Source of the DNA: Pseudomonas fluorescens Q2-87
Lineage (GTDB): Bacteria; Pseudomonadota; Gammaproteobacteria; Pseudomonadales; Pseudomonadaceae
Direction: 5' to 3'
Length of the DNA stretch: 64,000 nucleotides
NCBI RefSeq assembly: GCF_000281895.1
Contig: NZ_CM001558.1
Location: 810,556-874,555, forward strand
In this document: piece by piece, positions 23,740 to 42,286 of the stretch
How positions within the stretch are numbered: the first letter of the stretch is position 1
How the letters are laid out: the number at the start of each line of letters is the position of its first letter
Made by a program: the position numbers and the translations under genes
The notes under the pieces: generated by a model
Seen by the model: the letters and a program-made list of their open reading frames with translations, nothing else
Database searches by the model: none
What the model was told of the DNA's origin: nothing

Positions 23740-23975
23740 GGGCGTCGCCAAGACCTGTCGCTAAACAGAGTGGTGGCGACTGCACGCAGGTTAGCGAACC
23801 GGACATAGGCACCCGGCAGACCCGAAGGTCTCCTACATACAGCCGCCATAACGTAATCGCGGTTGGACCCCGCAATGCAGCATGGTTGCTTATGTGCCTA
23901 TGGTTCGAGTCGCTAAACCCGACCGCTGATTTTCAGCGACCCGGTAACCATAGAGTCCAGCCTCAAGGCGCACAA
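23740..23975 (-). ncRNA. Candidate structured 5' leader RNA of the DUF6124 gene
   Basis: Read on the minus strand this leader has AGACC-UUCG-GGUCU (23818-23831), a C(UUCG)G tetraloop hairpin that only makes sense on this strand. The segment 23894-23905 (plus strand GTGCCTATGGTT) can pair with 23804-23812 (CATAGGCAC, 9 bp) or with 23946-23953 (AACCATAG, 8 bp) but not both, because the two pairings share bases. GTCGCTAAAC occurs twice (23757, 23909), both able to pair with TTAGCGA at 23791-23797. CGCTGA/TCAGCG forms a further hairpin. Such alternative pairing is switch-like. No Rfam family is assigned. Confidence 0.5.
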
Positions 23976-24811: not shown

Positions 24812-24828
24812 ACTGCTGACCTAAAAGA

Positions 24829-24878
24829 AAACCCCTCCAGCCCAAACTGATACTCAGTCGGGGCTGGAGGGGTTTTTT
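24829..24878. terminator. Intrinsic terminator, left copy of a duplicated sequence
   Basis: 12-bp stem ACCCCTCCAGCC/GGCTGGAGGGGT (24831-24842, 24862-24873), with a second small hairpin ACTGA/TCAGT in the loop, then six T. An almost identical copy, with two differences in about 53 bases, is at 42188-42237. Confidence 0.9.
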
Positions 24879-24912
24879 ATGCAGGGCGCATTATCCAAGG
24901 CAAGGACTTACC

Positions 24913-25457: not shown

Positions 25458-26483
25458 ATGGATAGCATCAGTGTAAGAAATTTGTCCAAGACTTATCGAA
25501 TAAAAGAGCGCTCAGAAAGGGCGTTCGGTTGGTTGAAAGAGCTTGTATCTCCCAAGACTTCTGAAAAGACTGCGGTTGACGATATTTCCTTCACCGTCAA
25601 GCAGGGTGAGGTCGTGGGCTTTCTCGGTCCGAATGGCGCAGGTAAAACCACTACATTGAAAATGCTGTCGGGGTTACTCTACCCGACTGCCGGACAAATA
25701 TCGGTTCTGGGTCATAAGCCTCAACTGCGGAGTAAGGAATTTCTCAAGTCCATCTCGCTGATCATGGGGCAACGTCAACAGTTGATCTGGGACTTGCCGG
25801 CCATGGAAACCTTTCGGTTGAATCAGAAGATATTTGAAATTTCTGATGCACAGTTCAAAAAGACTTATGGTTATTTGGATGAGTTGCTTCAGGTGTCGAA
25901 GTTGGCCAAGGCGCCAGTGCGTACCTTATCGCTTGGCGAGAAAATGAAGTGTGAGCTGGTTGCGTCATTACTTCATGATCCCAAGGTTCTTTTTCTCGAT
26001 GAGCCTACCATCGGGCTTGATGTCGGCGTGCAGAAGATAGTTCGTTCGTTTGTTCGGGACTATAGTCGCGAGCGCAATGTAAGCGTACTGCTAACGTCGC
26101 ATTATATGCAGGATATTGAAGCCCTGTGTGAGCGAGTCGTTGTGGTTTCCGATGGCAAGATATCCTTTGATGACACCCTGGAGTCATTGCGTAAACGCAT
26201 GTCGGATCACCGCATCATCACGGTGGAGCTATCCGAAAATATCGTGGCTTCAGCGCTGGGCAGATATGGTCTGGTGCGTTCCACGGACGGCTTTGTGCAT
26301 GAAATGCTGGTCCCGGCTGCCGAGGTCGTGGCCGTTTGTTCGCGGGTTCTGGCCGAGCAGCCGGTCATCGACATTTCCATTGGTGATCCGCCGATCGAAG
26401 AGGCGCTGTTGAAGCTGTTCGTGGCCTCTCAGCCCGATACCCGGAAAAAGGTCCCGGGTGCTTCCGGGGAGCTTGTCGCATGA
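25458..26483 (+). CDS. ABC-2 type exporter ATPase of the NRPS cluster
   Basis: A 341-residue ATPase of the COG4586 (daunorubicin-resistance-like) group. Walker A is GPNGAGKTTTLK, the signature is the variant LSLGEKMKCEL, and Walker B is VLFLDEPTIGLD. An extended C-terminal domain follows (about 240-341). It overlaps the next gene by 4 bases. With the two permeases it should form an exporter, most simply for the peptide made by the adjacent NRPS. Its codon use is more A/T rich than the chromosomal genes nearby, in keeping with transfer. The ribosome site is weak. Confidence 0.85.
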   Translation: MDSISVRNLSKTYRIKERSERAFGWLKELVSPKTSEKTAVDDISFTVKQGEVVGFLGPNGAGKTTTLKMLSGLLYPTAGQISVLGHKPQLRSKEFLKSISLIMGQRQQLIWDLPAMETFRLNQKIFEISDAQFKKTYGYLDELLQVSKLAKAPVRTLSLGEKMKCELVASLLHDPKVLFLDEPTIGLDVGVQKIVRSFVRDYSRERNVSVLLTSHYMQDIEALCERVVVVSDGKISFDDTLESLRKRMSDHRIITVELSENIVASALGRYGLVRSTDGFVHEMLVPAAEVVAVCSRVLAEQPVIDISIGDPPIEEALLKLFVASQPDTRKKVPGASGELVA

Positions 26484-27271
26484 GCCGGTTTGCAGTGAAA
26501 GTCGCAGGGGTGGCACGCACGGCCATTCGTCGCAAAATTGCACATCGCGCAGAGTTGTTCGTATTGGTGCTCGCGTCTTTGGTGCCGTTGTTCATGATGG
26601 CCATCTGGATGGGTATTGCAAAAGATGCCGCACTGGAAGGTTTTACACCAGTAAGGTTTGCGGCTTACTTTGCGCTAGTGTTTCTAGTTGGCGAAATAGT
26701 CTCTAGTACGGCTGCTGAGGAAGTGGAGAGCGACATCCATTCGGGTGATATAGGCAGTCTCCTTTTAAGGCCATTCAACATTGCGCTGTATTATTTCTTG
26801 AGCGAGCTGGCTTCGGCGATGGTCAGGGTTATTCCAGTGTTTTTTCTGGTGGCCGGCGTATTCCTGTTTTCTGAGGCGGGCCAATATTTACACCTGAGCT
26901 ATCTTCTCCCCGCACTGCTCGGGGTAATGCTTGGGTTTGCCATAAATTACTTGCTGTATTTCATTGGTGGGCTTGCGGCTTTCTGGTCCGATCAGGCAAG
27001 TACCTTTGATCTGGTCTTGACTTACATGCTTACTCTGTTTGGTGGTGTTCTCGCACCCTTGACACTTTATCCCGCATGGATGCAGTCGATACTTGAGTGG
27101 TCACCGTTCCCTTATATTATTAGTTTTCCAATACGAATCATTATGGGGGAGCTGACCGTCGAACAACTGATCAACGGATTGCTGTTTCAGATAGTGCTGG
27201 TCGTTGCGCTCTCGTTGTTGGCTCATTTTGTCTGGGCCAAAGGTGTTAAGCGTTATTCGGTGTTTGGGTAA
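26480..27271 (+). CDS. ABC-2 family permease (COG4587-like), exporter subunit 1
   Basis: A 263-residue inner-membrane protein with six hydrophobic segments (for example LFVLVLASLVPLFMMAIWMG and LLPALLGVMLGFAINYLLYF). It belongs to the ABC-2 family transporter proteins (PF06182 type) that pair with COG4586 ATPases. The conserved DIHSGDIGSLLLRPFN loop between helices 2 and 3 is typical. It overlaps the ATPase by 4 bases and the second permease by one base, so the three are translationally coupled. Confidence 0.82.
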   Translation: MSRFAVKVAGVARTAIRRKIAHRAELFVLVLASLVPLFMMAIWMGIAKDAALEGFTPVRFAAYFALVFLVGEIVSSTAAEEVESDIHSGDIGSLLLRPFNIALYYFLSELASAMVRVIPVFFLVAGVFLFSEAGQYLHLSYLLPALLGVMLGFAINYLLYFIGGLAAFWSDQASTFDLVLTYMLTLFGGVLAPLTLYPAWMQSILEWSPFPYIISFPIRIIMGELTVEQLINGLLFQIVLVVALSLLAHFVWAKGVKRYSVFG

Positions 27272-28053
27272 TGAAGACATTAGGCGCAGTCAAGGCGCTT
27301 CTAACTGCACGGTTGCAGGCGAATATGAAGGATCGTGTTCCGGTCTTTGTCAGCCTGTTGAACACTGCTTTGCTGGGATTGTCCGTTTATGTCGTGATCG
27401 AGATTTTCTTTGGAAATGTCGAGACAATTGGTGGCTGGAACAAGCAGCAGTCGATTGTGCTGTATGGGGCATTCATTTTTATTCGCTCCTTTGTACAAAT
27501 GGTGGTGTTGCCTAACTGCGAGGCTGCCTCGAAGTTGATTATCAACAAGTCCATTGATACTTACTTATCCAAGCCGGTTGACCTTAAAACTATCCTGGCT
27601 TTTGGGCAGCTCCGCCTGTGGCATATCTTCGGCGCCCTGCTGGGGCTGGGATTGATGCTGGGCGGTAGCCATGCGCAGGGACAATTGACGTTGCAGACGC
27701 TGGTCGCTTTCTTCGTATTCCTGATACTGGCATGTGCGCTGGTTTATTCGGTCTGGTTCAGTATCGCGAGCCTGGCGTTTTGGACCAAGAAGACCAGCAA
27801 CATTTCCCACCTGCTATTCATGTTTTTGACTACCGGTCGGTTTCCGTCCGGCGCGTACCCGGAGTGGATCCAGGTCGTGATCATGACCGTAGTACCTGTC
27901 TTTTTCATCATGGAAGTGCCCGCACAATCAGCGATGGGGTTGACGACGGGGCGGTCATTGGCGGGCGCTGTTCTGGCCACCCTGGCCTTCTTGTTGTTGT
28001 CGAGATTGCTTTGGCATTGGGGGGTCAAGAAATACCTTCGAGAAGGTGCCTGA
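27271..28053 (+). CDS. ABC-2 family permease (COG3694-like), exporter subunit 2
   Basis: A 260-residue inner-membrane protein with six hydrophobic segments and the family loop NKSIDTYLSKPVDLKTILAF after helix 2, parallel to LLRPFN in its partner. It belongs to the same ABC-2 permease family and completes a three-gene exporter. The NRPS gene starts 41 bases later on the same strand. Confidence 0.82.
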   Translation: MKTLGAVKALLTARLQANMKDRVPVFVSLLNTALLGLSVYVVIEIFFGNVETIGGWNKQQSIVLYGAFIFIRSFVQMVVLPNCEAASKLIINKSIDTYLSKPVDLKTILAFGQLRLWHIFGALLGLGLMLGGSHAQGQLTLQTLVAFFVFLILACALVYSVWFSIASLAFWTKKTSNISHLLFMFLTTGRFPSGAYPEWIQVVIMTVVPVFFIMEVPAQSAMGLTTGRSLAGAVLATLAFLLLSRLLWHWGVKKYLREGA

Positions 28054-28094
28054 CACAAGAAGCATCGAAATTTAGACCATAAACATGGAATGCT

Positions 28095-31000
28095 ATGGAC
28101 AATTTTCTGGATGTATTCGCCGAGCAGGTTCGGCGGGCGCCTGGCGCCATTGCAGCTTCGGATGGCTGCAACAGTCTGAGCTATCGCGATCTTGACGAAA
28201 TATCCGACGGCTTCGCCCGCATGCTGAGCGTCGCATCTGTCAGGCCGGGCGATATTGTCGCTATCGGTCTGGAAAGGGGACTCGGATTTCTCATTTCGAT
28301 GATTGGCCTGTTCAAGGTAGGGGCCGCTTATCTCCCTCTGGATCGTACTCTGCCGCTGGATCGGCGGGCCTATATGCTGGAGCAATGCAGTTGCCAATGG
28401 CTGATAGCGGAAGACGACGCCCAGTTACTGATCGACGATGTTGGGCTTCTGACAATGCCGGTCCGGCTCGAAGGCCTTAAGGACGGGTCGCCGTTCGAGC
28501 GCTGCATACTGGCGGACGACAGTCTCGCTTATGTGATTTTCACCTCTGGCTCGACAGGGATGCCCAAGGGGGCGATGGTCCATCATGGTGGAATGCTTAA
28601 TCATCTGCTGGCCAAAGTCGAAGATCTGGGCATGCACAAGGCACCCAACGTGGCGCAAACAGCGCCACAGAGTTTCGACATTTCCGTCTGGCAATTCCTG
28701 GCGCCACTCATCTGCGGCGGGCGTACGGCAATCCTGACCCGTTCGGAGTTTCTTGATCTGGATCGTCTGGGGGCACGGATCGAGCTCGACGAAATCGATA
28801 TCCTGCAAGTGGTGCCGAGTCATCTGTTGGCCATTCTGGATGCGATTTGCGTGGATGCCCAAAACGCACGCTTCGACCGTTTGAGCTGCCTCGTCGCCAC
28901 GGGTGAGGTGCTGCCCGTTTCACTTGCCCAACGTTGGTTGGCGACCAAGCCTCACGTCCCTTTGGTCAATGCCTACGGGCCAACTGAATGCAGTGACGAC
29001 ATCACTCACCAGGTTATTACCCGGATGCCTGCGGCTGACCAGGCGATCCCGATCGGGCGGGCGGTACGCGGTGTTCGGCTGGTCGTACGCGATGCTGACC
29101 GGGTAGCTTTGCCCGTAGGTGAAGTCGGCGAACTCTACGTCGAAGGGATTGCGGTGGGGCTCGGCTATATCGGTCGCCCCGACCTGACTGCCAAGGCGTT
29201 TGTCATTGTCGATGGCCGCCGAGCCTACAAGACTGGCGACCTCGTCAGTTGTGATGCCGAGGGTGTCTTTCACTATCACGGTCGGGCCGATGATCAGGTC
29301 AAGGTGCGAGGTCACCGGATCGAGCTGAGTGAGGTCGAATTCGGCATCCTGCGACTGGCTTACATCAAACAGGCGGCAGTGGTACTCAACACTTCGCGCA
29401 CTCGTGCCTTCCTGACGGCTTTCATCGTCGAGCAGGAGGGCACCGCAACCGATCTTGATAGGTTGCGTCTCGACCTGCACGACGTCTTGCCGGAACACAT
29501 GATTCCATCCGAGTTCCGGGTTCAGTCGTCTCTTCCCCAAACGTCCAATGGCAAGATCGACAAGAAAAAACTCACGGCCATCGCTAATGAAACAACGGCG
29601 CCTGACACCGTACAGAGCGTTGCGACAACTGCAAGTGTCGGCGCAGAGGCGCTGCTTGAGACTTGGCGTGAATTGCTGCGTAACCCGGCGTTGCGACCCG
29701 CCGACGATTTTTTCAAGCAGGGGGCTGATTCAATTCTCGCCTTGCAGTTCATTGCACGGGCAAAGGTCCACGGATATGCCTTCACTCTCGGGGACATCTT
29801 CCGGCATCCAACCACGCTCGGGCTGCTCAAAGTGGCCAGAACCCAAAACGCGGTGGTCGGCACCGCAGCTAGGGCGGGCGTTACACATTTGAATCCGCAA
29901 CAAGCGAAGGGCGATTCATCATCCTTCAAGCAGATTTCGCCGGCGCAGAAGGGCATCTACGTTCAGTCGCTACGAACCCGTCATCGCACGACTTACGTGC
30001 TGCAGTATTCGTTCCGCATGGTGCTGCCTGATGGCGGTGCCGTGCTGGAAGACGGGTGGCGCAAGGCTCATCAACACCATGAGTTACTGCGCAGCGCGTT
30101 CGTTCTCGCGCCGACGGGCCAACCGGTGCGTGTCGTTGTCGAAGACGCTCCACTACGATGGTCTCGGACCAGTCTTTTGCACCTTGACGACGAGCACCAG
30201 CGCAAGCATGTGGAAGACTTCCTCGTTCAGGAAAAACAGACCGGTTTCGAGCTGGATCAGCCGGCGCTCTATCGAGTGCATCTGTTCCATTTTGGGGGCC
30301 AGGATTATCAATTTATCCTCAGTGTCCACCATCTCGTGCTCGATGGTGCATCGATCTTTGCGCTGATGAGCGAAGTCTTCTCGGGAGCGCCGGTGGCGCA
30401 GGATGCATTTTCAACCTATATCGCCGGCCAGGAAAAATTCCACTTGCAATGGGAGGATCAGCAACTCTGGTCGGACCTCCTGGAGCCCTTCCATGTGCCG
30501 GTCTGCGTAGCAGACAAGCTTGCTGAGCCGTCCTTGAAACCGGTCGAACATCGAATCTTCAAAAGACGACTGCCCGCGGCACTTGAGCAGGGCATCGCGA
30601 GGCTGTGTGGTCGTGCCGGGGTCACGATTGCCGCTGTTGCGGCAACGGCCTGGGGGATGGCACTCAATGCAATAAATGGCGGGCAGCACCAATTATTTGG
30701 AATGATTGTCTCGGGGCGTGCCGACACCGGGGTTGGGCTGGATGATATCGGGATGTACGCCAATACCTTGCCGATTCCCTTGGCACTGGCGGCGACGCAG
30801 AGCCCCGAGGTCAGCCTCCAGGCGGTCAGTAGGCGCATCGCCGAGCTGCTTCGCTTCGAATCGATATACATGAACGAGGCGTTGGCCAGCACGCGTTCGC
30901 GTTTTGCCAACGGCGCTTTTGATACGGTGCTGAACGTCGAGACGTTGGCGGATTGGGCTGTGCTTGAGGCCCCCGGCGTCACGGTCGAACTCACGCAGGT

Positions 31001-34000
31001 GACTGACCTCACCGAGTTTGCCTTTGCCGTTGAAGTCCTTAGCAGCGCAGATGCCATCACTGTGGATTTCATTCGCGATCCTGAATATGTCTCCGAGGAG
31101 CGAGCAGAGGCGCTGTGCGAACATTTCCTGAGTGCACTGACCTATATCTGTGAAGCACATCGCCCGCTGCAAGAGTGGCTGGGCTGGCAAGGTGTGCCCA
31201 TGGTCGGTGACGAAACTTCGGCTCCGAAAGATCAACACCCGACGTCTTCGCAGCACACGTCCTTCGACACGATGGTGCTGGCTGCGGCGCGTGCAATCAT
31301 CGGCGATGACACGATTGCCCTGCAGCAGAATTTCTTCTCTTCGGGCGGAGACTCGATCGGTGCGTTGCAACTCATCGCTCGTTTGAGAAGTGATGGGATG
31401 ACAATTGATCTTGACAGTATCTTTGCCAGTCGATCACTGTCCGAAATCGCCCAGGCAGTGCGGCCACTGCACTGTACCGCCCGCGGAGAAATTCATCCGC
31501 CGACCGGTGCAACAGCACTGGTGCCTGTACAGCGCTGGTTCGCCGAACAGCAGCTAGTCAATCCTGACCATTGGTGTCTCGGCACGGCGGTCGAGATTCA
31601 CCGTCCCGTCGCGGCCGATACCCTTGTCGCGATCACTTACAAGATACTGGAGCGCTATCCGATATTGAGTGCGCAGTTCAAGATCGGCGATGGATACGAC
31701 CAGACTATTCCGGCCAATCCCGTCGATGTGCAGTCGAGTTGCAGGACAGCGCAACTGGCTGCATCGATCGATCAATCGCTGGAGCATATCCGGGCGGTGC
31801 TGGACGAGTCTCTGTCCGGTCTCGACCTCGAGCAGGGCGATTTGTTTCGTGCGGTGCTGTTTCGCACCCCGGATCCCGACACCAATCTATTGGTGCTGGT
31901 GGCGCATCACCTTGTGATCGATGCGGTGTCCCTGCGAATCCTCGTCGAGGATTATCTGCGCCTCTATGCCGGCAGCACGGTTCCTGCGCAGGTCACCCCG
32001 TTTCGCGCTTGGGCGCAGCAGCTTGCGAGTCACGGCCAAGCATTCAAGAACGATGTCCTGTCGCAGACCGCCTACTGGTCGCGGGTCATCGAGGCAATTC
32101 CCGCTGCGATACCTTTTGACCTGAACCGGCGACCATCGGGTCGCACCGCAATGTTGTCCCGGGGGTTGAGTTGCGCGGCGACCAACGCCTTGATCCGGGA
32201 GGTACCTGCGGCTTACAACACCCATATCAATGACATTCTGATCTCCGCGCTGGTCCGGGCGTTTTCCGGCTGGCGGGCGAGACCGGACATTGCGATCAAC
32301 CTCGAAGGACATGGCCGTGAAAGCGTCCTGGAAGGTGTCGACGTGTGCCGCACGGTAGGCTGGTTCACCTCTGTGTTCCCGGTATGCCTGAATGATCCCC
32401 AAGAGGGGCTTGGAAGTTTGATTCAGGCGACCAAACGTACACTCGCGGATATCCCGCAACGAGGTGTAGGGTATGGTCTGCTGCGTTACCTGTTCAATGA
32501 GTCCCGGGTGATTCCTGCTGCCGAGCCCATGGTGCAATTCAACTATCTCGGGCAATGGGACAACGTGTCATTTGATGACCCGGATGTGTCGATGCCGTCT
32601 GCCCAGGTCCTGAGTCTCCTCGATCAGGTGTCGGTGGACCCGCGCAACGGACGCCAACATGCACTGGAGATCGAGGCAAGGATTGCCCAGGGTCGATTTG
32701 AAATCGACTGGTATTACGACGACGGGATCCTGTCCCCGCAGGAGGCCGGGGATCTTGCGACGCGCTACGTCGATGCATTGGCCCAGATCATCGAGCATTG
32801 CACGGCGGGCGCCGTGGTGCGGGTGCCCGGCGACTATCCGGATGTCGATCTGACGGACGATGAGTTGCAGTCGCTGATTGCAGGCGTCGGCGCCGTACCG
32901 GCGGATATCTATCCGTTGTCACCGACACAGGAGGGAATCCTGTTCCAGCACCTGATGAGCGATGACGACACCTATACACTGCAGTACGTCATGGACATTA
33001 ATGGTGACGTTGACATCAGTGTGCTGGATGCGGCGTGGCAGGTGCTGGCCGAGCGTCATCCGATCCTGCGCACGGGGTTCTTCTGGGATGCGGTGGCGGG
33101 ACCGGTGCAATATGTGCTGCAGAAGGCAACTTGCAGTTGGCCGATCATCGCGGGTAATGGTGATCCGGCGCAATATGAACGCCTGATGAAGGATGATCGT
33201 TCACGGATCTTTGATCTTGCGACGCCTGCTTTGACTCGCTTCACGTTGCTGTCCGATGGTTTGCAGGCGCACAAATTGATCTGGACCTACCATCACATCC
33301 TTCTGGACGGCTGGTGTGTGGCCAAGGTCATCAAAGAGCTGTTTGCCATCTACGACCAGATGATCCGAGGTGTGCAGCCCGAGGCGGTCTTCGGTCCCGT
33401 CTATCGTGACTATATCGAGTGGCTGGCCAGTCAGCAGGCGCGGGAAAATCGTCCGTTCTGGCGACATTATCTGGCGGACGCCAGGCCCAGTCTGTTTACC
33501 AGTCCGGTTGCCTATCAGCCCTCCTCGCGTGCAGATCACAACGTCTACCGGTTTACCCTCGGACGTGACCTTTCGGGTTGCATCGAGCGATTCTGCGCCG
33601 GGCTGGGTGTGACCGTTGCGGTTCTCTTCCAGCGTATCTGGGCACAGATCCTGGCCGATAACACCCAGAGCTTCACACCCATCTTCGGCTGGGCTATTTC
33701 GGGACGGCCTGTCGACCTTGAGGGCTCCCAAGACATCATCGGGCTGATGACTTCCATCGTCCCGTGCAAGGTCGATGCACAGGCGCCGTTCTCCGTCGAG
33801 GCCCTTCGGCAGTTGCAGCGCAGCAGTGCAGCCCTGCAGGACGAAGGGCATGTCTCGATGAGTCATTTCCGGAGTGCTGCCGGACTTGGTCTGGAGGCGT
33901 TGTTCAATACCGTTCTCGTGGTCGAAAACTTCGAGCTTCAGGACAACTTGCCGGTCGGTGATCGCTACCGCCTCAGTAATCTGCAGTGGATCGAGAAGTC

Positions 34001-34205
34001 GGAGTTTCCTTTGGTTCTCGGTCTGGTTCCGGCAGATGATTTTCTGATCGAACTCAATTTCAACCCCGAAAAGTTCTGCGTTGCGCAAATGGTCGATCTT
34101 CAACAAAGGATTGTTTTCCATTCGCGTCAAATATCTTCTCTTGGAAATGGATACCTTGAGCATGATGCAAATTTACAGTGCGAATCAGTATCACAAGCTG
34201 GCTAA
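28095..34205 (+). CDS. Nonribosomal peptide synthetase, A-T-C-T-E-C
   Basis: A 2036-residue cytoplasmic synthetase. Domains: A1 (1-510; FTSGSTGMPKG, FDIS near 193, GKIDKKKL), T1 (about 520-590; FFKQGADSI, an Ala in the usual GGDS), C1 (about 610-1040; HHLVLDG near 745), T2 (about 1065-1130; GGDSI), E (about 1140-1580; HHLVIDAVS, EGHGRE, RTVGWFTSVFP, PQRGVGYG) and C2 (about 1603-2020; HHILLDG near 1733). There is no A domain between C1 and T2 and no C before A1, so A1 starts the chain and T2 must be charged in trans or by A1. E followed by C2 implies a D residue passed to the next carrier, most simply the separate A-T protein. The A1 pocket reads D-I-W-Q-V-T-A-D-D by PheA numbering; the acidic pair suits a diamino acid. 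No thioesterase is present. Confidence 0.9.
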   Translation: MDNFLDVFAEQVRRAPGAIAASDGCNSLSYRDLDEISDGFARMLSVASVRPGDIVAIGLERGLGFLISMIGLFKVGAAYLPLDRTLPLDRRAYMLEQCSCQWLIAEDDAQLLIDDVGLLTMPVRLEGLKDGSPFERCILADDSLAYVIFTSGSTGMPKGAMVHHGGMLNHLLAKVEDLGMHKAPNVAQTAPQSFDISVWQFLAPLICGGRTAILTRSEFLDLDRLGARIELDEIDILQVVPSHLLAILDAICVDAQNARFDRLSCLVATGEVLPVSLAQRWLATKPHVPLVNAYGPTECSDDITHQVITRMPAADQAIPIGRAVRGVRLVVRDADRVALPVGEVGELYVEGIAVGLGYIGRPDLTAKAFVIVDGRRAYKTGDLVSCDAEGVFHYHGRADDQVKVRGHRIELSEVEFGILRLAYIKQAAVVLNTSRTRAFLTAFIVEQEGTATDLDRLRLDLHDVLPEHMIPSEFRVQSSLPQTSNGKIDKKKLTAIANETTAPDTVQSVATTASVGAEALLETWRELLRNPALRPADDFFKQGADSILALQFIARAKVHGYAFTLGDIFRHPTTLGLLKVARTQNAVVGTAARAGVTHLNPQQAKGDSSSFKQISPAQKGIYVQSLRTRHRTTYVLQYSFRMVLPDGGAVLEDGWRKAHQHHELLRSAFVLAPTGQPVRVVVEDAPLRWSRTSLLHLDDEHQRKHVEDFLVQEKQTGFELDQPALYRVHLFHFGGQDYQFILSVHHLVLDGASIFALMSEVFSGAPVAQDAFSTYIAGQEKFHLQWEDQQLWSDLLEPFHVPVCVADKLAEPSLKPVEHRIFKRRLPAALEQGIARLCGRAGVTIAAVAATAWGMALNAINGGQHQLFGMIVSGRADTGVGLDDIGMYANTLPIPLALAATQSPEVSLQAVSRRIAELLRFESIYMNEALASTRSRFANGAFDTVLNVETLADWAVLEAPGVTVELTQVTDLTEFAFAVEVLSSADAITVDFIRDPEYVSEERAEALCEHFLSALTYICEAHRPLQEWLGWQGVPMVGDETSAPKDQHPTSSQHTSFDTMVLAAARAIIGDDTIALQQNFFSSGGDSIGALQLIARLRSDGMTIDLDSIFASRSLSEIAQAVRPLHCTARGEIHPPTGATALVPVQRWFAEQQLVNPDHWCLGTAVEIHRPVAADTLVAITYKILERYPILSAQFKIGDGYDQTIPANPVDVQSSCRTAQLAASIDQSLEHIRAVLDESLSGLDLEQGDLFRAVLFRTPDPDTNLLVLVAHHLVIDAVSLRILVEDYLRLYAGSTVPAQVTPFRAWAQQLASHGQAFKNDVLSQTAYWSRVIEAIPAAIPFDLNRRPSGRTAMLSRGLSCAATNALIREVPAAYNTHINDILISALVRAFSGWRARPDIAINLEGHGRESVLEGVDVCRTVGWFTSVFPVCLNDPQEGLGSLIQATKRTLADIPQRGVGYGLLRYLFNESRVIPAAEPMVQFNYLGQWDNVSFDDPDVSMPSAQVLSLLDQVSVDPRNGRQHALEIEARIAQGRFEIDWYYDDGILSPQEAGDLATRYVDALAQIIEHCTAGAVVRVPGDYPDVDLTDDELQSLIAGVGAVPADIYPLSPTQEGILFQHLMSDDDTYTLQYVMDINGDVDISVLDAAWQVLAERHPILRTGFFWDAVAGPVQYVLQKATCSWPIIAGNGDPAQYERLMKDDRSRIFDLATPALTRFTLLSDGLQAHKLIWTYHHILLDGWCVAKVIKELFAIYDQMIRGVQPEAVFGPVYRDYIEWLASQQARENRPFWRHYLADARPSLFTSPVAYQPSSRADHNVYRFTLGRDLSGCIERFCAGLGVTVAVLFQRIWAQILADNTQSFTPIFGWAISGRPVDLEGSQDIIGLMTSIVPCKVDAQAPFSVEALRQLQRSSAALQDEGHVSMSHFRSAAGLGLEALFNTVLVVENFELQDNLPVGDRYRLSNLQWIEKSEFPLVLGLVPADDFLIELNFNPEKFCVAQMVDLQQRIVFHSRQISSLGNGYLEHDANLQCESVSQAG

Positions 34206-35115
34206 CTTCATTGGCGACGTGCCGGTCTACCTGAAGATAGAAGGGTTGAATCCGGCCGGGTCGATAAAACTCAAGACTGCAATATCGCTGATCGAAGAAA
34301 GTGAGCGTCTGGGCCTACTTTCACCCGGACGAAAAGTAATCGAGTCCAGCTCGGGAAACCTCGGTGTTGCGTTATCGATGATTTGTGCGCAGCGCGGTTA
34401 TCCGTTTACCTGCATAACCGATCCCAACGTCAATCAGGTCAGTGTCAACCTGATGAAGGCTTACGGCGCCGAAGTCATTGTCTGTGACACCCGCGACCGA
34501 AATGGCGGTTTTCTCGGGGCGCGCATTGCCTTGATTCAGGAAATGATCCGTCAGGACCCGAGGTATTTCTGGACCAACCAGTACGCCAACCCGGCCAACC
34601 CACTGGCGCACTACAACTGGACTGCGCCGGAAATCCTGCAGCAGCACCCCAACTGCAAATGGTTGTTTGTCGGTGCCGGTACCACCGGGACGCTTATAGG
34701 CTGCGCGCGATATCTGCGTGAAAAAGCGCCAGAGGTAAAACTGATTGCCGTCGATACCGTGGGTTCGATCAACTTTCAGGAGGTGCCCAAGAAGAGGCTC
34801 ATTCCCGGTTTGGGAACGAGTCGGCGCCCGGAAATTCTCGAGCGGGATCTAGTCGAGCATATCGAGTTCGTTGATGAGGTCGAGACGATCCGCATGTGTC
34901 GCAGTGTTGCGTTGGGCTACGGCCTGCTGCTTGGGGGGTCCACGGGGACCGTACTGGTTGCGGTCAAGCGCCTGAGGAAACAGATTCCGGCGGGCGACGA
35001 AGTGGTCGTGATCAGCCCCGATATGGGTGAGCGGTATCTCGAAACGATCTATTCGGATAAGTGGTGTGACGCCAACTTTGGTAGCCAGATGTATCAACAC
35101 GCGATGGTGGGTTGA
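34147..35115 (+). CDS. sbnA: SbnA/VioB-like PLP enzyme for 2,3-diaminopropionate synthesis
   Basis: A cysteine-synthase-fold PLP enzyme of about 322 residues. LNPAGSIKLKTA carries the Schiff-base Lys, SSSGNLGVALS is the substrate loop, and VGAGTTGTLIG binds the cofactor phosphate. The absence of the CysK GNTPL pattern and the GSIK context fit SbnA, which joins O-phosphoserine and glutamate to N-(1-amino-1-carboxy-2-ethyl)-glutamate, the precursor of L-2,3-diaminopropionate. Its partner SbnB is four genes down. The start is uncertain: ATG at 34147 (overlapping the NRPS by 59 bases), 34162 or 34165 are all possible. Confidence 0.8.
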   Translation: MDTLSMMQIYSANQYHKLANFIGDVPVYLKIEGLNPAGSIKLKTAISLIEESERLGLLSPGRKVIESSSGNLGVALSMICAQRGYPFTCITDPNVNQVSVNLMKAYGAEVIVCDTRDRNGGFLGARIALIQEMIRQDPRYFWTNQYANPANPLAHYNWTAPEILQQHPNCKWLFVGAGTTGTLIGCARYLREKAPEVKLIAVDTVGSINFQEVPKKRLIPGLGTSRRPEILERDLVEHIEFVDEVETIRMCRSVALGYGLLLGGSTGTVLVAVKRLRKQIPAGDEVVVISPDMGERYLETIYSDKWCDANFGSQMYQHAMVG

Positions 35116-35164
35116 ATCTCGGCGGTGCGTTGGTTGATGTTTCTCAGAGCAGAAGGAACCTAGC

Positions 35165-36931
35165 TTGTCACAACTTCAATTCCCCCCGAGCGACGTTGCG
35201 CAAACACAGATATTTCTCGATCAGTGGGCCCGCGTTAGTCACGATTTCAAAGGAGAACCCGCCATAGAAGATGGCGGTGTTCTGTATACCTATGGCGAAG
35301 TGGACACCGACAGTCAGCGAATCGCGACCTACCTGGCACGCAACGCGATTGGTGCAGGCGCGATAGTGGTCATTGGTTGTCCGCGCGGCAAGGATCTGCT
35401 GGTGGCCTTGCTAGGTGTCATGAAGAGTGGCGCAGCCTTAATCCTCATGGACCTGGACGCCGCCCCAGCCCGCTTGTCCGTACAGCTGGACGCTGCCAAT
35501 GCGAAGCTGGTTCTGGTCCCTGATGGGTACATCGTTGGCAACAATCCTGCCCTGGTCGCTGAAAAGGTCGTGACCCTCGGCCAGGCTCGGGATACGGCGC
35601 AGTCCCTGCACTTCGAACAACCGCGGATAGCACCACAAGACCTGGCGTACATCATTTTCACTTCGGGCTCTACAGGGCAACCGAAAGGGGTGATGGTTTC
35701 GCACCGGGGCATCCCTAACCTTGCCCATCATGCGGTGACGTATGGCATTACGCAGGGCAGTCGGGTGCTGATGTTTTCCCCGGTCTGTTTCGACGCGATC
35801 ATTGCCGAAATCACCATGACCCTGTTTGCAGGTGGCTGTCTGGTTGCCGTGGCTGACCACGAGCTGCGAGATTTCGATAATCTGCAAAACCTGCTGTGCA
35901 ATCGTCGCATCGATGTCGCCACGTTGCCTCCGTCACTGGTGTCGTTGCTGCCGTCCGAGTTACCGATCAGCCTGAGTACATTGATCGTGGCCGGCGAGAG
36001 GTGCAACAAGGAAGTCATTGTCAACTGGGCGAGCAAGACCCGTTTGATCAATGCCTATGGGCCTTCTGAGGCGACGGTCGCTACAACGGTGAAGTTGTGC
36101 TCTCTCGACACCTCTCCAGCGGATATTGGCCAAGCGATCTCCAACGTCACGGTGCGCCTCCTTGACGAAGCGCTGGAGGACGTTCCGGATGGCGAACTCG
36201 GCGAGATCTACATCAGCGGAGTGAGTGTTGCCTTGGGCTATCTGGGCAATCCGGACCTGAGCAATGCACGGTTTATCCGTGGCTTGGCCGGCGACGACAG
36301 CTTGAGCTTTCGAACCGGGGATTTCGCCAGGCGCGATGTGAACGCAGGCATCCTGTTCGAGGGACGCAAGGACGATCTGGTCAAGATCAACGGAAACCGT
36401 GTCGAGCTGGCCGAGATCGAGGCCTGTGCCATGGCTTCGCGGCTGATTAGAAGCTGCCACGCTTGTTGCGTCGATGCCGGCACTTCGGGCGTGAGGATCT
36501 CGCTTTTTGTGACGCCGTCTGACAAAGCTGACGATGGGCGGCTGGAGCCTGAGCTGAGGGCCCGGATCAGCGCCGAGTTGCCCGCTTATTTCATGCCTGC
36601 GCGGATCGTCGTTCTGGATGAACTGCCGCGCAATCCGGCGGGTAAAGTCGATCGGGCAGCGTTGATCGCGCAGTTGAGCGACCTGGTGGAGGAGAGCGGG
36701 GCCCCGGAGGCAATGACCCCTCAGGAAGAAACCCTGGCGCTGATCTGGGCACAGATCCTAGGGCGTCCGATTGAAAACCGTGAGGCGAATTTCTTTGCGT
36801 TGGGTGGTAACTCCCTCTTGGCGATGCGTCTCGTCGCGCTGATGAAACGCAGTGGTATTCAAATCAATCTCAAGCGCGTGTTTGGCGCTCCGACACTGGC
36901 AAAAATGGCCTGTCTGATGGAGGGTAAATAA
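35165..36931 (+). CDS. Free-standing NRPS adenylation-carrier (A-T) protein
   Basis: A 588-residue didomain protein starting at TTG (35165) after AAGGA. The A domain (1-505) shows IIFTSGSTGQPKGVM, FDAI, NAYGPSEATVA, FRTGDFARR and NPAGKVDRAAL. The carrier (about 515-585) has FFALGGNSLLA with the phosphopantetheine Ser. By PheA numbering the pocket reads D-A-A-T-I-A-A-V-A, hydrophobic and closest to aromatic-type codes; this is a tentative reading. It has no C domain of its own, so it depends on C2 of the large NRPS or on the next gene, which starts within its stop codon (TAATG). Confidence 0.88.
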   Translation: MSQLQFPPSDVAQTQIFLDQWARVSHDFKGEPAIEDGGVLYTYGEVDTDSQRIATYLARNAIGAGAIVVIGCPRGKDLLVALLGVMKSGAALILMDLDAAPARLSVQLDAANAKLVLVPDGYIVGNNPALVAEKVVTLGQARDTAQSLHFEQPRIAPQDLAYIIFTSGSTGQPKGVMVSHRGIPNLAHHAVTYGITQGSRVLMFSPVCFDAIIAEITMTLFAGGCLVAVADHELRDFDNLQNLLCNRRIDVATLPPSLVSLLPSELPISLSTLIVAGERCNKEVIVNWASKTRLINAYGPSEATVATTVKLCSLDTSPADIGQAISNVTVRLLDEALEDVPDGELGEIYISGVSVALGYLGNPDLSNARFIRGLAGDDSLSFRTGDFARRDVNAGILFEGRKDDLVKINGNRVELAEIEACAMASRLIRSCHACCVDAGTSGVRISLFVTPSDKADDGRLEPELRARISAELPAYFMPARIVVLDELPRNPAGKVDRAALIAQLSDLVEESGAPEAMTPQEETLALIWAQILGRPIENREANFFALGGNSLLAMRLVALMKRSGIQINLKRVFGAPTLAKMACLMEGK

Positions 36932-38217
36932 TGGCGGGCAAAGGACTGAACCCATACCAACGCTATTATTGGAGCGCGTCCAGCGCCTACGACCTCGCGG
37001 AAACGGCCTGCGTGAGCATTGGTTTTGTACTGGACGGGCCATTGAACATCGCGCAGTTCAGCCGAGCGGTGGACGCGGTGGTCAATCGTCACGAACAACT
37101 GCGGTCCCACTTCTACGAAACGGAAGAAGGCCCTCGACGATTTCCCGCAACCGAGGTAACTGACGTACTGAGCGTCGATGGTGAACCGTTCGAGTTGTCC
37201 AGACTGGAAGACTGTATCGAGAACTTGTGCCGACGGTCGCTCGATCTGAAGGTGGATATACCGTTCAGGGCCTATCTGAAAAAGCTCGGGCAGGATCGTT
37301 ACCTGTTTGCACTGATCATTCACCACATCGTTGTCGATTCATGGTCGCTGGAGGTCATCCTCGACGATCTGGCGACCGCCTACAACGGGTTGATATCCGC
37401 CGCGCCGGAACCGTTGCTGGAGCCGCTCACTTTCGATCATGAAACGCTGGCAGCGCCGTTGGAGCAGGATGAGCATCAGCGTCAGGCGCTGTTCTGGCGA
37501 CACTATCTCAAGGACGCGAAGATCCCGCTGATTCCGGGTTTGCTCATCGGCGAGAGCGCGCAAGCCAAGTCGACCTTCGATGTAATGACCCCCGGTGTGG
37601 AGATTCATGGGGCCATCAACCGACTTTGTAATACGTTGGATGTAACGCCTTTTGTGGTTTACACCGCGGCGGCGTCTATTGCTCTCGCACATTTTTGCGC
37701 GACGGACGATTTTTTGATCCAGACCAATGTGACGCCGCGTTGGACGGAAGGCACGCAGACTGTCGTCGCCTACCTGTCAGCGCGCATTCCATTGCGAATA
37801 CGCGTTGACTCGAAATTGTCGTTGCAGGCTCACATCCTCAAAGTCGCCGACTCACTCTACGAAACCTTCGACAGCGTCGGTCTTTCTATCGGTGAAATCA
37901 TGGCCGAATCCGAAATCAGACAGAGCCTGCCTGTTCACATCGGTGCAGAAAGCCCGTTTGAAAGCTGGGATCTTGAAGGTGTCGCTGTCTCCCAGGTCCA
38001 GCTACCCGACTATCAGCCGTGGCCGCTATTTTTGTGGGTACCTGTCACGACTGATCATTGCTTTATCAAGCTGCAGTACCAGGCTGACAGAATCTCGCCT
38101 GAAAACATGCTGAAACTAAAACATCTGCTGAACGAAACGTTAGATCAATTCAGTCTCCTGGAGGCCGAAGGAAGCGCTCGTGACACAGCGGTTTTACAAC
38201 ACGATGCCATTCAATGA
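36931..38217 (+). CDS. Free-standing NRPS condensation domain
   Basis: A 428-residue protein that is a single C domain: N-terminal NPYQRYYWSAS in place of the usual SxAQ, LRSHFYETEEGP, the catalytic HHIVVDSWS (His about 131-132), and C-terminal strands. The second His and Asp of HHxxxD are present; the usual Gly is Ser. It has no carrier or A domain. With no thioesterase in the cluster it may make the last amide bond or release the chain onto a free amine. It overlaps its upstream neighbour by one base and sbnB by 4 bases (ATGA). Confidence 0.85.
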   Translation: MAGKGLNPYQRYYWSASSAYDLAETACVSIGFVLDGPLNIAQFSRAVDAVVNRHEQLRSHFYETEEGPRRFPATEVTDVLSVDGEPFELSRLEDCIENLCRRSLDLKVDIPFRAYLKKLGQDRYLFALIIHHIVVDSWSLEVILDDLATAYNGLISAAPEPLLEPLTFDHETLAAPLEQDEHQRQALFWRHYLKDAKIPLIPGLLIGESAQAKSTFDVMTPGVEIHGAINRLCNTLDVTPFVVYTAAASIALAHFCATDDFLIQTNVTPRWTEGTQTVVAYLSARIPLRIRVDSKLSLQAHILKVADSLYETFDSVGLSIGEIMAESEIRQSLPVHIGAESPFESWDLEGVAVSQVQLPDYQPWPLFLWVPVTTDHCFIKLQYQADRISPENMLKLKHLLNETLDQFSLLEAEGSARDTAVLQHDAIQ

Positions 38218-39275
38218 GACCTTCCATGAAAGACTCCCGACACCTGTCGTCCCACGCGTTGACCGTCGTTTCTGGCGCGCAGATCGCCAGTCTGATGCCT
38301 TCGTTGCGCGAGGACATTCTGCGTCTGGTCGAAGAAACCTACTTGCAGCACGATGCCGGCCTGACCAACAACCCCGACAGTTATTTCCTGAGATTCGAAG
38401 AACGTCAATCGGATCGGATCATTGCTTTGCCAGCTGCCATTGCCAACGACACGCCCATTTCGGGCATCAAGTGGATTGCCAGTTATCCGAAGAACATCGA
38501 GCAAAATCTACAGCGTGCCTCGGCCGTCCTGTTGCTCAACGATTACGAAACGGGTTACCCGGTGGCATGCCTTGAAGCCTCGCAAATCAGCGCGGCCAGG
38601 ACCGCGGCGTCTGCAGTGCTCGCTGCAAGGGCGCTGGTGGCGGATCCGAAGGAGGCGGTGAATGTTACATTCGTCGGCGCCGGGGTGATTTCCCGCGCAA
38701 TCTTTGATTTTTTCATGGCTGATGGCTGGAGGTTCGGTCAGGTAAATGTCTGTGATCTGGACGCGGGGTCGGCCGCTGAGCTTCGTCATCACATAGAGGC
38801 CGGGACAGGCCAGGAAGCGCGTTTCGTCGAGAGCTGGAAGTCAGCTATCAGTGCTGCCGATATCATTGTTTTCGCCACCAACGCAGGCACGCCTTATGTA
38901 TCGGGAGACGATGTCTTTGCGCCCGGACAGATCATTCTGAATGTCTCGCTGCGCGATATCAGCCCGGACATCATCTGGCATGCGTTCAACGTATTCGACG
39001 ATGTGGAACATTGCATGAAAGCCAATACTTCTCCCCATCTGGCGGAGCAGAAGTACGGTGATCGCTCATTTGTGCACGGCACGCTCGCGCAAGTCCTAAA
39101 GACCCCGAGCTTGATCAACCGTTCGCGTCCGCTGATTTTCTCGCCATTTGGGTTGGGTGTCCTGGATCTTGTGGTGGGCCAACTGTTCGTCGACAAATGT
39201 ATGGAGGCTGGGGCCTATACCAACATCGCGGACTTCATTCCGGACACGCGACGTTGGGACACGTCCCACGGCTGA
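38214..39275 (+). CDS. sbnB: SbnB-like 2,3-diaminopropionate biosynthesis dehydrogenase
   Basis: A 353-residue member of the ornithine cyclodeaminase/mu-crystallin family. The Rossmann fold shows VTFVGAGVISRAIFDFF, and substrate-side motifs are SGIKWIASYPKN and ASQISAARTAASA. SbnB oxidises and hydrolyses the SbnA product with NAD to L-2,3-diaminopropionate plus 2-oxoglutarate. Together with SbnA it is a strong marker that the peptide contains Dap. The start at 38214 overlaps the previous stop; ATG at 38226 is the alternative. Confidence 0.87.
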   Translation: MRPSMKDSRHLSSHALTVVSGAQIASLMPSLREDILRLVEETYLQHDAGLTNNPDSYFLRFEERQSDRIIALPAAIANDTPISGIKWIASYPKNIEQNLQRASAVLLLNDYETGYPVACLEASQISAARTAASAVLAARALVADPKEAVNVTFVGAGVISRAIFDFFMADGWRFGQVNVCDLDAGSAAELRHHIEAGTGQEARFVESWKSAISAADIIVFATNAGTPYVSGDDVFAPGQIILNVSLRDISPDIIWHAFNVFDDVEHCMKANTSPHLAEQKYGDRSFVHGTLAQVLKTPSLINRSRPLIFSPFGLGVLDLVVGQLFVDKCMEAGAYTNIADFIPDTRRWDTSHG

Positions 39276-39335
39276 AGCCATCAAGCAGTAGAAACGCGAG
39301 TATGTACTCGTTCCATTCCAGGGAGGAATGACCCG

Positions 39336-41576
39336 ATGCCCATTAAAAAATGCATGATCATTGGCTTCAATGATTTCTCGTTTGACGACTACTGTCAGAT
39401 GCTCGATCAACTTGCACCTGAAGCGGCAGCGAAACGGGATCTGCGCTTGGCGTTTGTCAATTATGAGGGCTCGCGGTTTCATGCATTGGGCGTGCTGAAC
39501 AAGACGCGTGAATTGCAGGGGCTAGCTGACCTGGACCTGAACAATGCCGACTTTCTATGGCCGGTTGTGATGGTGTTGGGGACCTATCTCGACAAGCACC
39601 GCATTGCTTTTGACTACGTCAACCTTTTTCAGAAAGAGAAGGACGTTCTGGCGCAAAAACTGACATCCGGGACGATCAACGCGGTGGTCATCACCACGAC
39701 CCTCTATGTGATGCCCCATCCGGTGCAGGAGATTGTGGACTTCGTGCGCTCCTTTGCCCCTGAGGTGCAGATCATCATCGGCGGGCCCTATATCAGCGGT
39801 CTGTTCAAGGCTCATGATCGCGAGCTGCTCGGCGACTACTTGAGTGTTCTTGGCGGTGATATCTATATCAACAGCAATGAAGGGGAGGACACACTTCGCC
39901 AGGTACTGGAGGCGCTCAACCAGAACCGTTCAGTCATCGGCTTGAGCCGCACGGCGGTACGGGACGGTGATACGTGGGTGTTCGGTACGGATGAGCCAGA
40001 ATACAACGAGCTGAAGGAAAATTTCGTCAATTACAAGTTGTTCGAACCGCGCGGCATCGGACGTTTTTTGTCCACGCGTACAGCCAAGTCGTGCCCATAC
40101 TCCTGTGCATTCTGCGGTTTTCCCCAGCGGGCCGGTAAGTACCGCTACTTGTCCACCCGCGATGTAGAACGCGAACTGGACGCGGTGAAGGCGATCGGCA
40201 CCGTGGATACGCTGACGTTCCTGGATGACACATTCAATGTGCCCAAGCAGCGCTTCCGGGAAATCATGCAGATGATGATCGACAACCAGTACAACTTTAA
40301 GTGGAACTCCTTCTATCGCTCTGATCAGGGCGACCCGGAAACCATCGAACTGATGGCGCGCGCAGGGTGCGAAGGCGTTTTTCTGGGGATCGAGTCTGCC
40401 TCCGACAAGATGCTTGCATTGATGCGCAAGACGTCACGTCGCAAGAACTATGAACAGGCCATTAGTGCATTCCGCTCGGTGGGCATTGCGACGCACGCCT
40501 CGTTCATCATTGGCTTTCCAGGGGAAACCATCGACACGGTGCAAGAGAGCCTGGACTTCATCGAAACCTTTCGGCCGGACACCTTCCGAGCGCAGGTGTG
40601 GTATTGCGACCCGCTGACACCCATCTGGAATGATCGGGAGAAGTACGGCATCACCGGGTCGGGCTTCGACTGGGCGCACGACACGATGGACAGCGAACTG
40701 GCTGCATCCATTACCGAGCGGTTTTTTCTTACCGCACAAAACTCCACGTGGTTGCCACAGTTCGGCTTTGAGCAATGGAGTCTGTTTTATCTGCATCGCC
40801 AGGGAATGGAGCAGAGTAATATCCTCGGGTATCTGGACGGCTTCAATGCGGCAGTCAAGCATCAGTTGTTGCATGGCGATGAGGTTGAGTTACCTGCCTC
40901 AATCGTCGACCGCTTCAGGTTCAGTGCCCATTTGCCGGCGCAAAGTCCTGCCGTGCCGCAGCCCAGGTTATCAACGGAATCGGCGACGCACTTCAAGGCT
41001 GCTGAAGCACGCTTGCGGGCCGTGGCCGCGTGGCTGGATCCGCAGAATATCGGGGCAATGCCGCTGCACACGGGGGAGCAGACGCAAGCAGCGCTGAGCT
41101 GGCCCGAGGGTATCGTCAATGGCAGCGATCCGGACGTCGGCTGGATCGTGGCCTTTTTGAAGCACGCTTCGAGCATTCTTCAGGGCAGTCGATTTGTTTG
41201 GCAACACGTCGTCAAGGAAGGCTCCCGACAGATTGTGATCGATGATGTCGACCGTTGCAGCGAGGCTGCGCTGTATGACCGCGTCGCGACATCACTTGCC
41301 CAGACCCCACTACTCGGCAGTCACGACAACTATCTGCTGTCGCGCAATTCACGGTTGGGTGCTTGCGGCATCGTTTTATGTCAGCCGGTCCTTCGCGTGT
41401 TCGCCGATGATGTTGTCGCTCATTCGTCTGACAGCGGGCTTTACATGCACCTGCTGCTGCCCAGTAGCGGGCAGGGACGGGTGCTGAGCAATTTTGTCCG
41501 ATGGGCTCCCGAGCTTCACACTGCGGATGCGCGGAGTTCGCTTGCCGAGCAGGCCGTGTTTGTCAGAGTGCAATAA
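39336..41576 (+). CDS. PhpK-family B12-binding radical SAM methyltransferase
   Basis: A 746-residue protein with an AGGAGG site. The start (KKCMIIGFNDFSFDDY..., KRDLRLAFVNYEGSRFHAL) is the pattern of the PhpK family, named for the P-methylase of phosphinothricin synthesis. A cobalamin-binding Rossmann region (about 60-200; VVITTTLYVMPHP, IIIGGPYISG) precedes the radical SAM barrel with the cluster motif C253-PYS-C257-AF-C260. After about residue 500 comes an extension of some 240 residues with no motif I recognise. It should methylate an unactivated carbon (or phosphorus) with methylcobalamin and SAM. No C-P bond gene (pepM) is nearby, so C-methylation of the peptide or a precursor is more likely. 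Confidence 0.8.
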   Translation: MPIKKCMIIGFNDFSFDDYCQMLDQLAPEAAAKRDLRLAFVNYEGSRFHALGVLNKTRELQGLADLDLNNADFLWPVVMVLGTYLDKHRIAFDYVNLFQKEKDVLAQKLTSGTINAVVITTTLYVMPHPVQEIVDFVRSFAPEVQIIIGGPYISGLFKAHDRELLGDYLSVLGGDIYINSNEGEDTLRQVLEALNQNRSVIGLSRTAVRDGDTWVFGTDEPEYNELKENFVNYKLFEPRGIGRFLSTRTAKSCPYSCAFCGFPQRAGKYRYLSTRDVERELDAVKAIGTVDTLTFLDDTFNVPKQRFREIMQMMIDNQYNFKWNSFYRSDQGDPETIELMARAGCEGVFLGIESASDKMLALMRKTSRRKNYEQAISAFRSVGIATHASFIIGFPGETIDTVQESLDFIETFRPDTFRAQVWYCDPLTPIWNDREKYGITGSGFDWAHDTMDSELAASITERFFLTAQNSTWLPQFGFEQWSLFYLHRQGMEQSNILGYLDGFNAAVKHQLLHGDEVELPASIVDRFRFSAHLPAQSPAVPQPRLSTESATHFKAAEARLRAVAAWLDPQNIGAMPLHTGEQTQAALSWPEGIVNGSDPDVGWIVAFLKHASSILQGSRFVWQHVVKEGSRQIVIDDVDRCSEAALYDRVATSLAQTPLLGSHDNYLLSRNSRLGACGIVLCQPVLRVFADDVVAHSSDSGLYMHLLLPSSGQGRVLSNFVRWAPELHTADARSSLAEQAVFVRVQ

Positions 41577-42073: not shown

Positions 42074-42187
42074 TGTCCTGCTCCTTTGGATATTCATGGT
42101 TCTCGCAGTTTAGCGGTGAAGCGCGGCACGAGTGAGCCGGTATGGCGGTTGTCATGCAGTGTTGTATGGGCGTTCTTTTAAAAAAGA

Positions 42188-42237
42188 AAACCCCGCCAGC
42201 CCAAACTGATACTCAGTCGAGGCTGGAGGGGTTTTTC
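42188..42237. terminator. Intrinsic terminator, right copy of the duplicated sequence
   Basis: Stem ACCCCGCCAGCC/GGCTGGAGGGGT with one internal mismatch, the same loop as the copy at 24829-24878, and T runs on both strands (TTTTT right, CTTTT reading left). It serves the dpp operon, whose last gene ends at 42287 on the minus strand. Confidence 0.88.
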
Positions 42238-42286
42238 ATGCCGGATACATGACCCAAGGCGAAGGTTCTCTACCTGCCTTATGCCT

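Follow-up and report, generated by a model that had tools for sequence, protein, structure and literature searches.

We have analysed a cluster of nine genes located at positions 25458-41576 of a 64,000-nucleotide stretch of Pseudomonas fluorescens Q2-87 DNA (contig NZ_CM001558.1), to which we refer as the window; the genome searched around it is a single contig of 6.37 Mb. The nine open reading frames (ORFs) are all open and all on the + strand, and they join an ATP-binding cassette (ABC) exporter and the proteins of a nonribosomal peptide synthetase (NRPS) to enzymes of the SbnA and SbnB type and to a B12 radical S-adenosylmethionine (SAM) protein. The domains of the NRPS are denoted as A (adenylation), T (thiolation), C (condensation) and E (epimerization), and L-2,3-diaminopropionate as Dap. 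The genes (coordinates, strand, identity) are the following:

25458..26483, +, ABC transporter ATPase of an ABC-2 exporter, DrrA-like (PF00005; best NCBIfam model drrA, 200 bits, under its cut-off of 312)
26480..27271, +, ABC-2 permease 1, ABC2_membrane_6 (PF06182, 71 bits, cut-off 22)
27271..28053, +, ABC-2 permease 2, ABC2_membrane_6 (PF06182, 139 bits, cut-off 22)
28095..34205, +, NRPS1, A1-T1-C1-T2-E-C2, 2036 aa (Pfam, three PF00668 matches; E and C2 by quick tree)
34147..35115, +, SbnA-like pyridoxal phosphate (PLP) enzyme, first step of Dap synthesis (TIGR03945)
35165..36931, +, A2-T3 (Pfam; A2 code DAATIAAVAK)
36931..38217, +, stand-alone condensation domain C3 (PF00668, 116 bits; motif HHIVVDS)
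38214..39275, +, SbnB-like NAD dehydrogenase, second step of Dap synthesis (TIGR03944)
39336..41576, +, B12 radical SAM protein of the PhpK family (TIGR04479, 765 bits, cut-off 600)

As described in the first-pass annotation, which was made from the letters of the window, the genes lie on one strand with overlaps of 1-59 bases: five of the eight junctions overlap, by 4 nt (26480-26483), 1 nt (27271), 59 nt (34147-34205, presuming that SbnA starts at the ATG of 34147; the longest ORF begins at the TTG of 34081), 1 nt (36931) and 4 nt (38214-38217), and the remaining three are gaps of 41, 49 and 60 nt. The three-part ABC-2 exporter of that annotation was recovered by Pfam as one ABC ATPase and two ABC2_membrane_6 permeases. 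Its statement that siderophore receptor, thioesterase, MbtH and regulator genes are missing holds for the nine cluster proteins, among which the Pfam scan found no match to these families; a thioesterase (PF00975) over cut-off is present elsewhere in the genome.

Assembly line and predicted diaminopropionate supply

The order A-T-C-T-E-C in NRPS1 was derived from the positions of the matches, from the motif HHLVIDA in the middle PF00668 domain and from the placement of the domains in a quick tree; for NRPS1 as well as for the A-T and C proteins, Pfam domains and core motifs agree with the architecture first proposed. Canonical core motifs, read from the translations (a regex scan caught only some of them), are found in the three T domains, C1, E and C2. 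C3 has HHIVVDS in place of HHxxxDG and lies on a long branch of the tree; all the C domains of the cluster are near full length. The E domain groups with PF00668 domains taken as E, including one from an NRPS of the same genome that we assume to be PvdL and call PvdL-like, and C2 groups with C domains that come after E domains. With one E domain placed by the quick tree, the peptide very probably contains one D residue, as had been proposed.

SbnA scores 390 bits against TIGR03945 (equivalog cut-off 350) and SbnB 395 bits against TIGR03944 (equivalog cut-off 327). The best PDB match of SbnA is S. aureus SbnA (5d87), with which the lysine of a GSxK stretch, presumably the PLP lysine, is aligned; that of SbnB is 4m54, deposited as a putative ornithine cyclodeaminase. 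An SbnA/SbnB-type pair is tied to Dap by experiment in S. aureus, and Dap and SbnA/SbnB belong to staphyloferrin B (PMC3179956). The earlier claim that the SbnA- and SbnB-like enzymes make Dap is supported by the passing of both equivalog cut-offs and by the A1 code, and we predict with high confidence that the pair supplies Dap. The code in question, DIWQVTADDK, is identical at 8/10 positions to that of the third A domain of the PvdL-like protein (DIWELTADDK), whose module we take to accept 2,4-diaminobutyrate (Dab). This comparison is an internal calibration of A1 as a diamino acid domain, not a proof; that A1 activates Dap is a likely prediction. The final K of the A-domain codes was assumed, not read; for A1 and A2 its motif was seen in the sequence.

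The association of Dap and SbnA/SbnB with staphyloferrin B (PMC3179956) also suggests that the product could be a metal chelator, that is a siderophore or metallophore. This we consider improbable, as no receptor, hydroxamate or catechol gene family is found among the nine proteins. The genome has, moreover, a separate NRPS, the PvdL-like protein.

The code of A2, which we take to be aryl-type, recurs unchanged in P. veronii and P. lini, the two relatives that carry the same cluster (see below). It shares 7-8/10 positions with DAST[IV]A[AG]VCK, presumably a tyrosine code, to which we return in connection with the relatives of the radical SAM protein.

The radical SAM protein and its relatives

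The match of the radical SAM protein to TIGR04479 covers model positions 1-504 and residues 4-507, which represent the catalytic part; residues 508-746 form a divergent tail. The cysteines of the CxxxCxxC motif (C253, C257, C260) are invariant in 79 aligned sequences. For the B12-binding domain PF02310 there is no match in this protein, and P0008 and P0009, two proteins of the Pseudomonas type, have matches only below cut-off. The AF2 structure model has a pLDDT of 86, and its best folds in a comparison over residues 2-538 are TsrM (match over model residues 3-536), MgmA and CysS; the 50 matches listed by Foldseek were radical-SAM-type chains or complexes. It is conceivable that the enzyme does not methylate and instead carries out other chemistry, such as a cross-link, a ring formation or a rearrangement. 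We find this decidedly unlikely, as TIGR04479 is annotated as a methyltransferase subfamily, the score is well over its cut-off, and the three top folds are all methyltransferases.

Which atom would be methylated is a separate question. PhpK is reported to mediate P-methylation (PMC7277169), and the first-pass annotation had assigned the protein to the PhpK family. The membership stands, with TIGR04479 over cut-off; its use as a sign of phosphinate chemistry probably does not, because no phosphoenolpyruvate (PEP) mutase over cut-off is found in the whole genome (best score 122 bits, cut-off 320). None is found over cut-off in P. veronii or P. lini either, and no phosphonate gene family is present among the nine cluster proteins (Pfam, NCBIfam). 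Counted genome-wide, PEP mutase is over cut-off in 3/28 genomes with this protein or a relative (3/25 with a relative, several of these being metagenome-assembled and perhaps incomplete, 0/2 in a further pair of genomes with a relative, and none in this genome); the three are two Burkholderia and one Lachnospiraceae, and a Polyangia genome (G414) is just under cut-off with 305 bits. The TIGR04479 cut-off itself was applied to this protein and to a few relatives, other than those of 38-41% identity in L062, L063, L067 and L068. Two actinobacterial PhpK-family loci (L118, L119) contain NRPS A domains, in genomes without an over-cut-off PEP mutase.

Since PEP mutase occurs over cut-off in only 3/28 genomes, the function name of PhpK needs evidence before it is transferred. 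A peptide of the phosphinate or phosphonate kind, with the enzyme as a true P-methyltransferase like PhpK, would have in its favour the NCBI family name, the reported activity of PhpK (PMC7277169) and the 3/25 genomes with a relative in which PEP mutase is over cut-off; the lack of an over-cut-off PEP mutase here and in P. veronii and P. lini, and of any phosphonate family in the cluster, makes it very improbable, and a phosphinate product was rejected as the principal interpretation on the PEP mutase result for this genome. It is in our judgement highly likely that the enzyme carries out C- rather than P-methylation.

The context of the relatives was studied in 27 loci of named genomes, found with two peptide patterns derived from the alignment, so that the family is sampled rather than fully listed. 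L069 (23% identity, weak) and L066 (a repeat of L052 in strain and match) were dropped, leaving 2 Pseudomonas and 23 distant loci. Matches to A or C domains (tblastn) lie near the relative in 22 of the 23 distant loci, including weak or single ones in L045 and L061. The exception is L049 from Terriglobia, which has a PP-binding-thioesterase fragment and SbnA/SbnB. Its PhpK-family gene is also near an amino acid kinase, acyl-CoA dehydrogenases and a carbamoyltransferase.

A C-domain hidden Markov model (HMM) built from 12 full C domains was run over the 25 loci. In seven of them (L046, L047, L054, L058, L059, L064, L065) the next NRPS gene after the radical SAM gene starts with the C-terminal lobe only of PF00668 (27-49 bits), to which we refer as a half-condensation (half-C) domain; Pfam confirms these starts in 6/6 tested, that is in all but L059. 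The wording 'next NRPS gene', not next gene, is used because in L046 an ORF with a nuclease domain intervenes. L054 and L058 have tandem PhpK-family genes and two half-C-A modules each, two of the four half-C matches being weak; the starts on the upstream NRPS of these loci score 24 and 14 bits. L062 gave a partial, unflagged HMM match with no PF00668 by Pfam, and L067 a sub-cut-off Pfam match. The NRPS that precedes the radical SAM gene ends in a full C domain in six of the seven half-C loci (all but L047), so that the C and A-T parts are split across genes, as are C2 and A2-T3 here; in L067 and L068 the radical SAM gene comes after that of a stand-alone C. Because the relatives adjoin NRPS-type domains, with half-C domains in seven loci, C-methylation on the assembly line is the chemistry that we favour.

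The tail of the radical SAM protein was compared as well. Residues 508-746 align with the half-C tails of relatives of ~800 residues, in which a PF00668 half-C tail was seen in 6/6 tested (P0077 just under cut-off); no half-C tail was seen in P0008 and P0009, which were tested for the Pseudomonas type. A structure model of the tail by itself is poor (pLDDT 36.5). In the tree of the sampled family, the proteins from Pseudomonas group together as a separate, supported clade with a long stem (0.87); support for their wider placement is weak.

Specificity codes were read for 55 A domains, namely those kept by the ORF filter, which missed some (for example, one upstream in L057); some A domains of L048 gave no readable code. 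In L045, L057, L060 and L061 the frame of the radical SAM protein was displaced by the filter, which makes the downstream genes of these loci less sure; in L064 the called frames of the NRPS and the radical SAM protein overlap. Among the A domains kept, a downstream one on the same strand is present in 15/25 loci. The code DAST[IV]A[AG]VCK occurs five times among the 55, each time in the A domain that comes first downstream of the radical SAM gene. Four further loci (L062, L063, L067, L068) have D[GA]xxTAE[VI]VK at this position, which we take to be like another Tyr code, and other codes are found in the remaining six (L054, L056, L057, L058, L059, L060).

Overall, these trends suggest a general picture of the family that we put forward tentatively, as somewhat less than an even proposition: the proteins named after PhpK would mostly not be phosphorus enzymes, but B12 radical SAM C-methyltransferases found across phyla in NRPS lines, arranged as a full C domain that is terminal or stand-alone, a radical SAM protein that often bears a half-C tail itself, and half-C-A-T, with on-line methylation of the carrier-bound residue, often of the Tyr type. 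The half-C domain may serve as a docking platform, with one radical SAM protein per half-C module, as in L054 and L058 with two of each, and the Pseudomonas proteins may be a divergent branch that kept the tail, the half-C of the A-T protein having been lost or never present.

Conservation and genomic setting

The same nine genes, in the same order, are present in P. veronii DSM 11331 and P. lini CC269, which answers the search for this gene order in other genomes that had been proposed with the first-pass annotation. Identities are 83-95% per protein (for the ABC ATPase, 90% to P. veronii and 86% to P. lini). The clusters of both species lie at the same site, between prfC and a dipeptide-transporter operon (names that are our own reading of the flanking ORFs); in a relative without the cluster (G010, locus L088) the corresponding interval is ~0.8 kb. 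All nine genes are under purifying selection, with dN/dS of 0.04-0.17 and dS of 0.33-0.90 against both P. veronii and P. lini; one stop counted in NRPS1 of P. lini was taken as its terminal stop, which falls two codons early by the end of the ORF. Because the nine genes are conserved in both relatives with these values of dN/dS, the cluster is not a chance set of ORFs.

The closest named relatives of the cluster are from Pseudomonas. Among 398 sampled genomes of the genus (this one included), an over-cut-off radical SAM protein is found only here, and so is C3; when C3 was used as a marker for a variant cluster without the radical SAM gene, none was recognized among the 398. Homologs of C3 at 68-99% identity number 15 (of 18), the organism-named ones all from Pseudomonas, versus 10 homologs of the radical SAM protein at identities of at least 61% (one covering only 71%); short contigs are among them. 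A C3 homolog of 87% identity (P0124) is named from Pseudomonas congelans. Such rarity could be expected of a decaying remnant; this explanation is hardly credible for a cluster in which all frames are open, the core motifs are kept and selection is as described above.

Two copies of a direct repeat, 17.36 kb apart, lie on either side of the cluster, and are possibly the trace of an insertion:

24823..24901, no strand assigned, left copy of the 79-nt repeat, with a terminator-like hairpin (89% identical to the right copy)
42182..42260, no strand assigned, right copy of the 79-nt repeat, adjoining a dipeptide-transporter-like gene at 42287

The next gene beyond the cluster, on the minus strand (41633-42097), is a DUF2087 gene. 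DUF2087-related DNA is found at the same site in another genome (G002, locus L091), with neither C3 nor an over-cut-off radical SAM protein there. Upstream of the cluster, a C4 antisense RNA (RF01695) is recognized on the minus strand at 23769-23853 (75.7 bits, gathering score 45).

Proposed pathway and known systems

The interpretation that we prefer, with some reserve and at slightly under even odds, is that the cluster is a functional orphan NRPS pathway in which an aryl residue loaded by A2 is C-methylated on the assembly line, within an exported peptide that contains Dap and a D residue. SbnA and SbnB would make Dap; A1 would activate a diamino acid, most likely Dap, and load it on T1 and perhaps on T2, which lacks a dedicated A domain. 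The residue on T2 would be epimerised by E, and C2 would join it to a probably aromatic amino acid that A2-T3, a separate protein, has loaded. The B12 radical SAM protein would C-methylate this A2 residue, most likely on T3 before it is used by C2, an arrangement that we place first because the split between C2 and A2-T3 resembles that between C and half-C-A-T in the relatives; we give the methyl group an even chance of being on the A2 residue. C3 may act in release or in a further bond, and the ABC-2 exporter would send the product out. Of the short, exported and methylated Dap peptide first proposed, the Dap supply and the export genes are retained, and the methyl group takes the form of a C-methylation suggested by the NRPS context of the relatives.

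A competing possibility is that the radical SAM protein methylates the beta carbon of Dap, to give 2,3-diaminobutyrate on T1 or T2, and leaves the A2 residue unmodified. The cluster contains SbnA and SbnB, the latter encoded directly before the radical SAM gene; the PhpK-family gene of L049 is paired with SbnA and SbnB; and the first downstream A domain of L060 has a diamino-type code. Against it, SbnA/SbnB matches occur in only 1/23 distant loci, and the commonest first-downstream code (5/15) is presumably aryl-like. On balance we regard Dap methylation as unlikely, although it is our second choice.

Several observations weigh against methylation of the A2 residue on the line as just described. 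The A2-T3 protein has no half-C domain, and its gene lies upstream of the radical SAM gene instead of following it. The match of the tail profile to half-C tails is modest (E 1.9e-4, probability 47%), the same profile matched neither half-C domains nor full C domains as such, and Pfam finds no PF00668 in the tail of this protein or of P0008 and P0009. A reading of the tail of this protein as a condensation domain was not adopted. Only 5/15 first-downstream codes are DAST-type, and that of L060 is diamino-type. The A2 and DAST code strings appear in no open-licence paper searched, their aryl meaning being presumed, and the second A domain of the PvdL-like protein, presumably the Tyr module of pyoverdine, reads DAEGIGAVMK, unlike A2. 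Finally, the quick tree places C1 together with C2 in the post-E clade though no E precedes C1; this, together with the loading of T2, the role of C3 and the exit of the product, is left unexplained by the model.

In the open-licence literature searched there is no matching cluster, consistent with the first-pass statement that the set could not be assigned to a named product, and no description was found there of a Dap NRPS cluster with such an enzyme or of a link between TIGR04479 and half-condensation domains. Being orphan, rare and conserved, such a pathway to a Dap peptide offers a direct target to product discovery, in named strains like P. veronii DSM 11331. In addition, the name of a P-methyltransferase family sits on NRPS-linked proteins, 24/27 of the other genomes being without an over-cut-off PEP mutase, and the pairing with half-condensation domains suggests a testable docking of the radical SAM protein on the assembly line, which would correct automated product prediction.

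These results can be compared with known systems. PhpK and BcpD, of the phosphinothricin tripeptide pathways, belong to the same NCBIfam subfamily (TIGR04479), a likeness established through the model match; the protein studied here differs from them by an extra tail of 240 residues, by an NRPS/Dap cluster and by a genome without an over-cut-off PEP mutase. The PvdL-like NRPS resembles NRPS1 in its third A code (8/10 like A1) and in a related E domain (quick tree), but is a single frame of 4337 residues with three A domains read, whereas the line here consists of NRPS1 and separate A-T and C proteins. C-methylation by B12 radical SAM enzymes in NRPS pathways is already known from DscE (PMC12858407) and CysS (PMC8992657). 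CysS of the cystobactamid pathway acts on a carrier-bound substrate (PMC8992657); it is 13-14% identical to the radical SAM protein here, and its substrate, an aminobenzoate, differs. DscE (discodermin), compared here by description only, is a B12 radical SAM enzyme whose gene lies in an NRPS cluster, as here, and whose C-methylation, the activity that we propose for the present enzyme, was shown in vitro; it acted on free peptide, at Val (PMC12858407). The Dap-making pair, lastly, is the same as in SbnA/SbnB of staphyloferrin B, VioB/VioK and the zwittermicin and dapdiamide homologs (PMC3179956), and is distinguished here by its company of an NRPS, a B12 radical SAM protein and an ABC-2 exporter.

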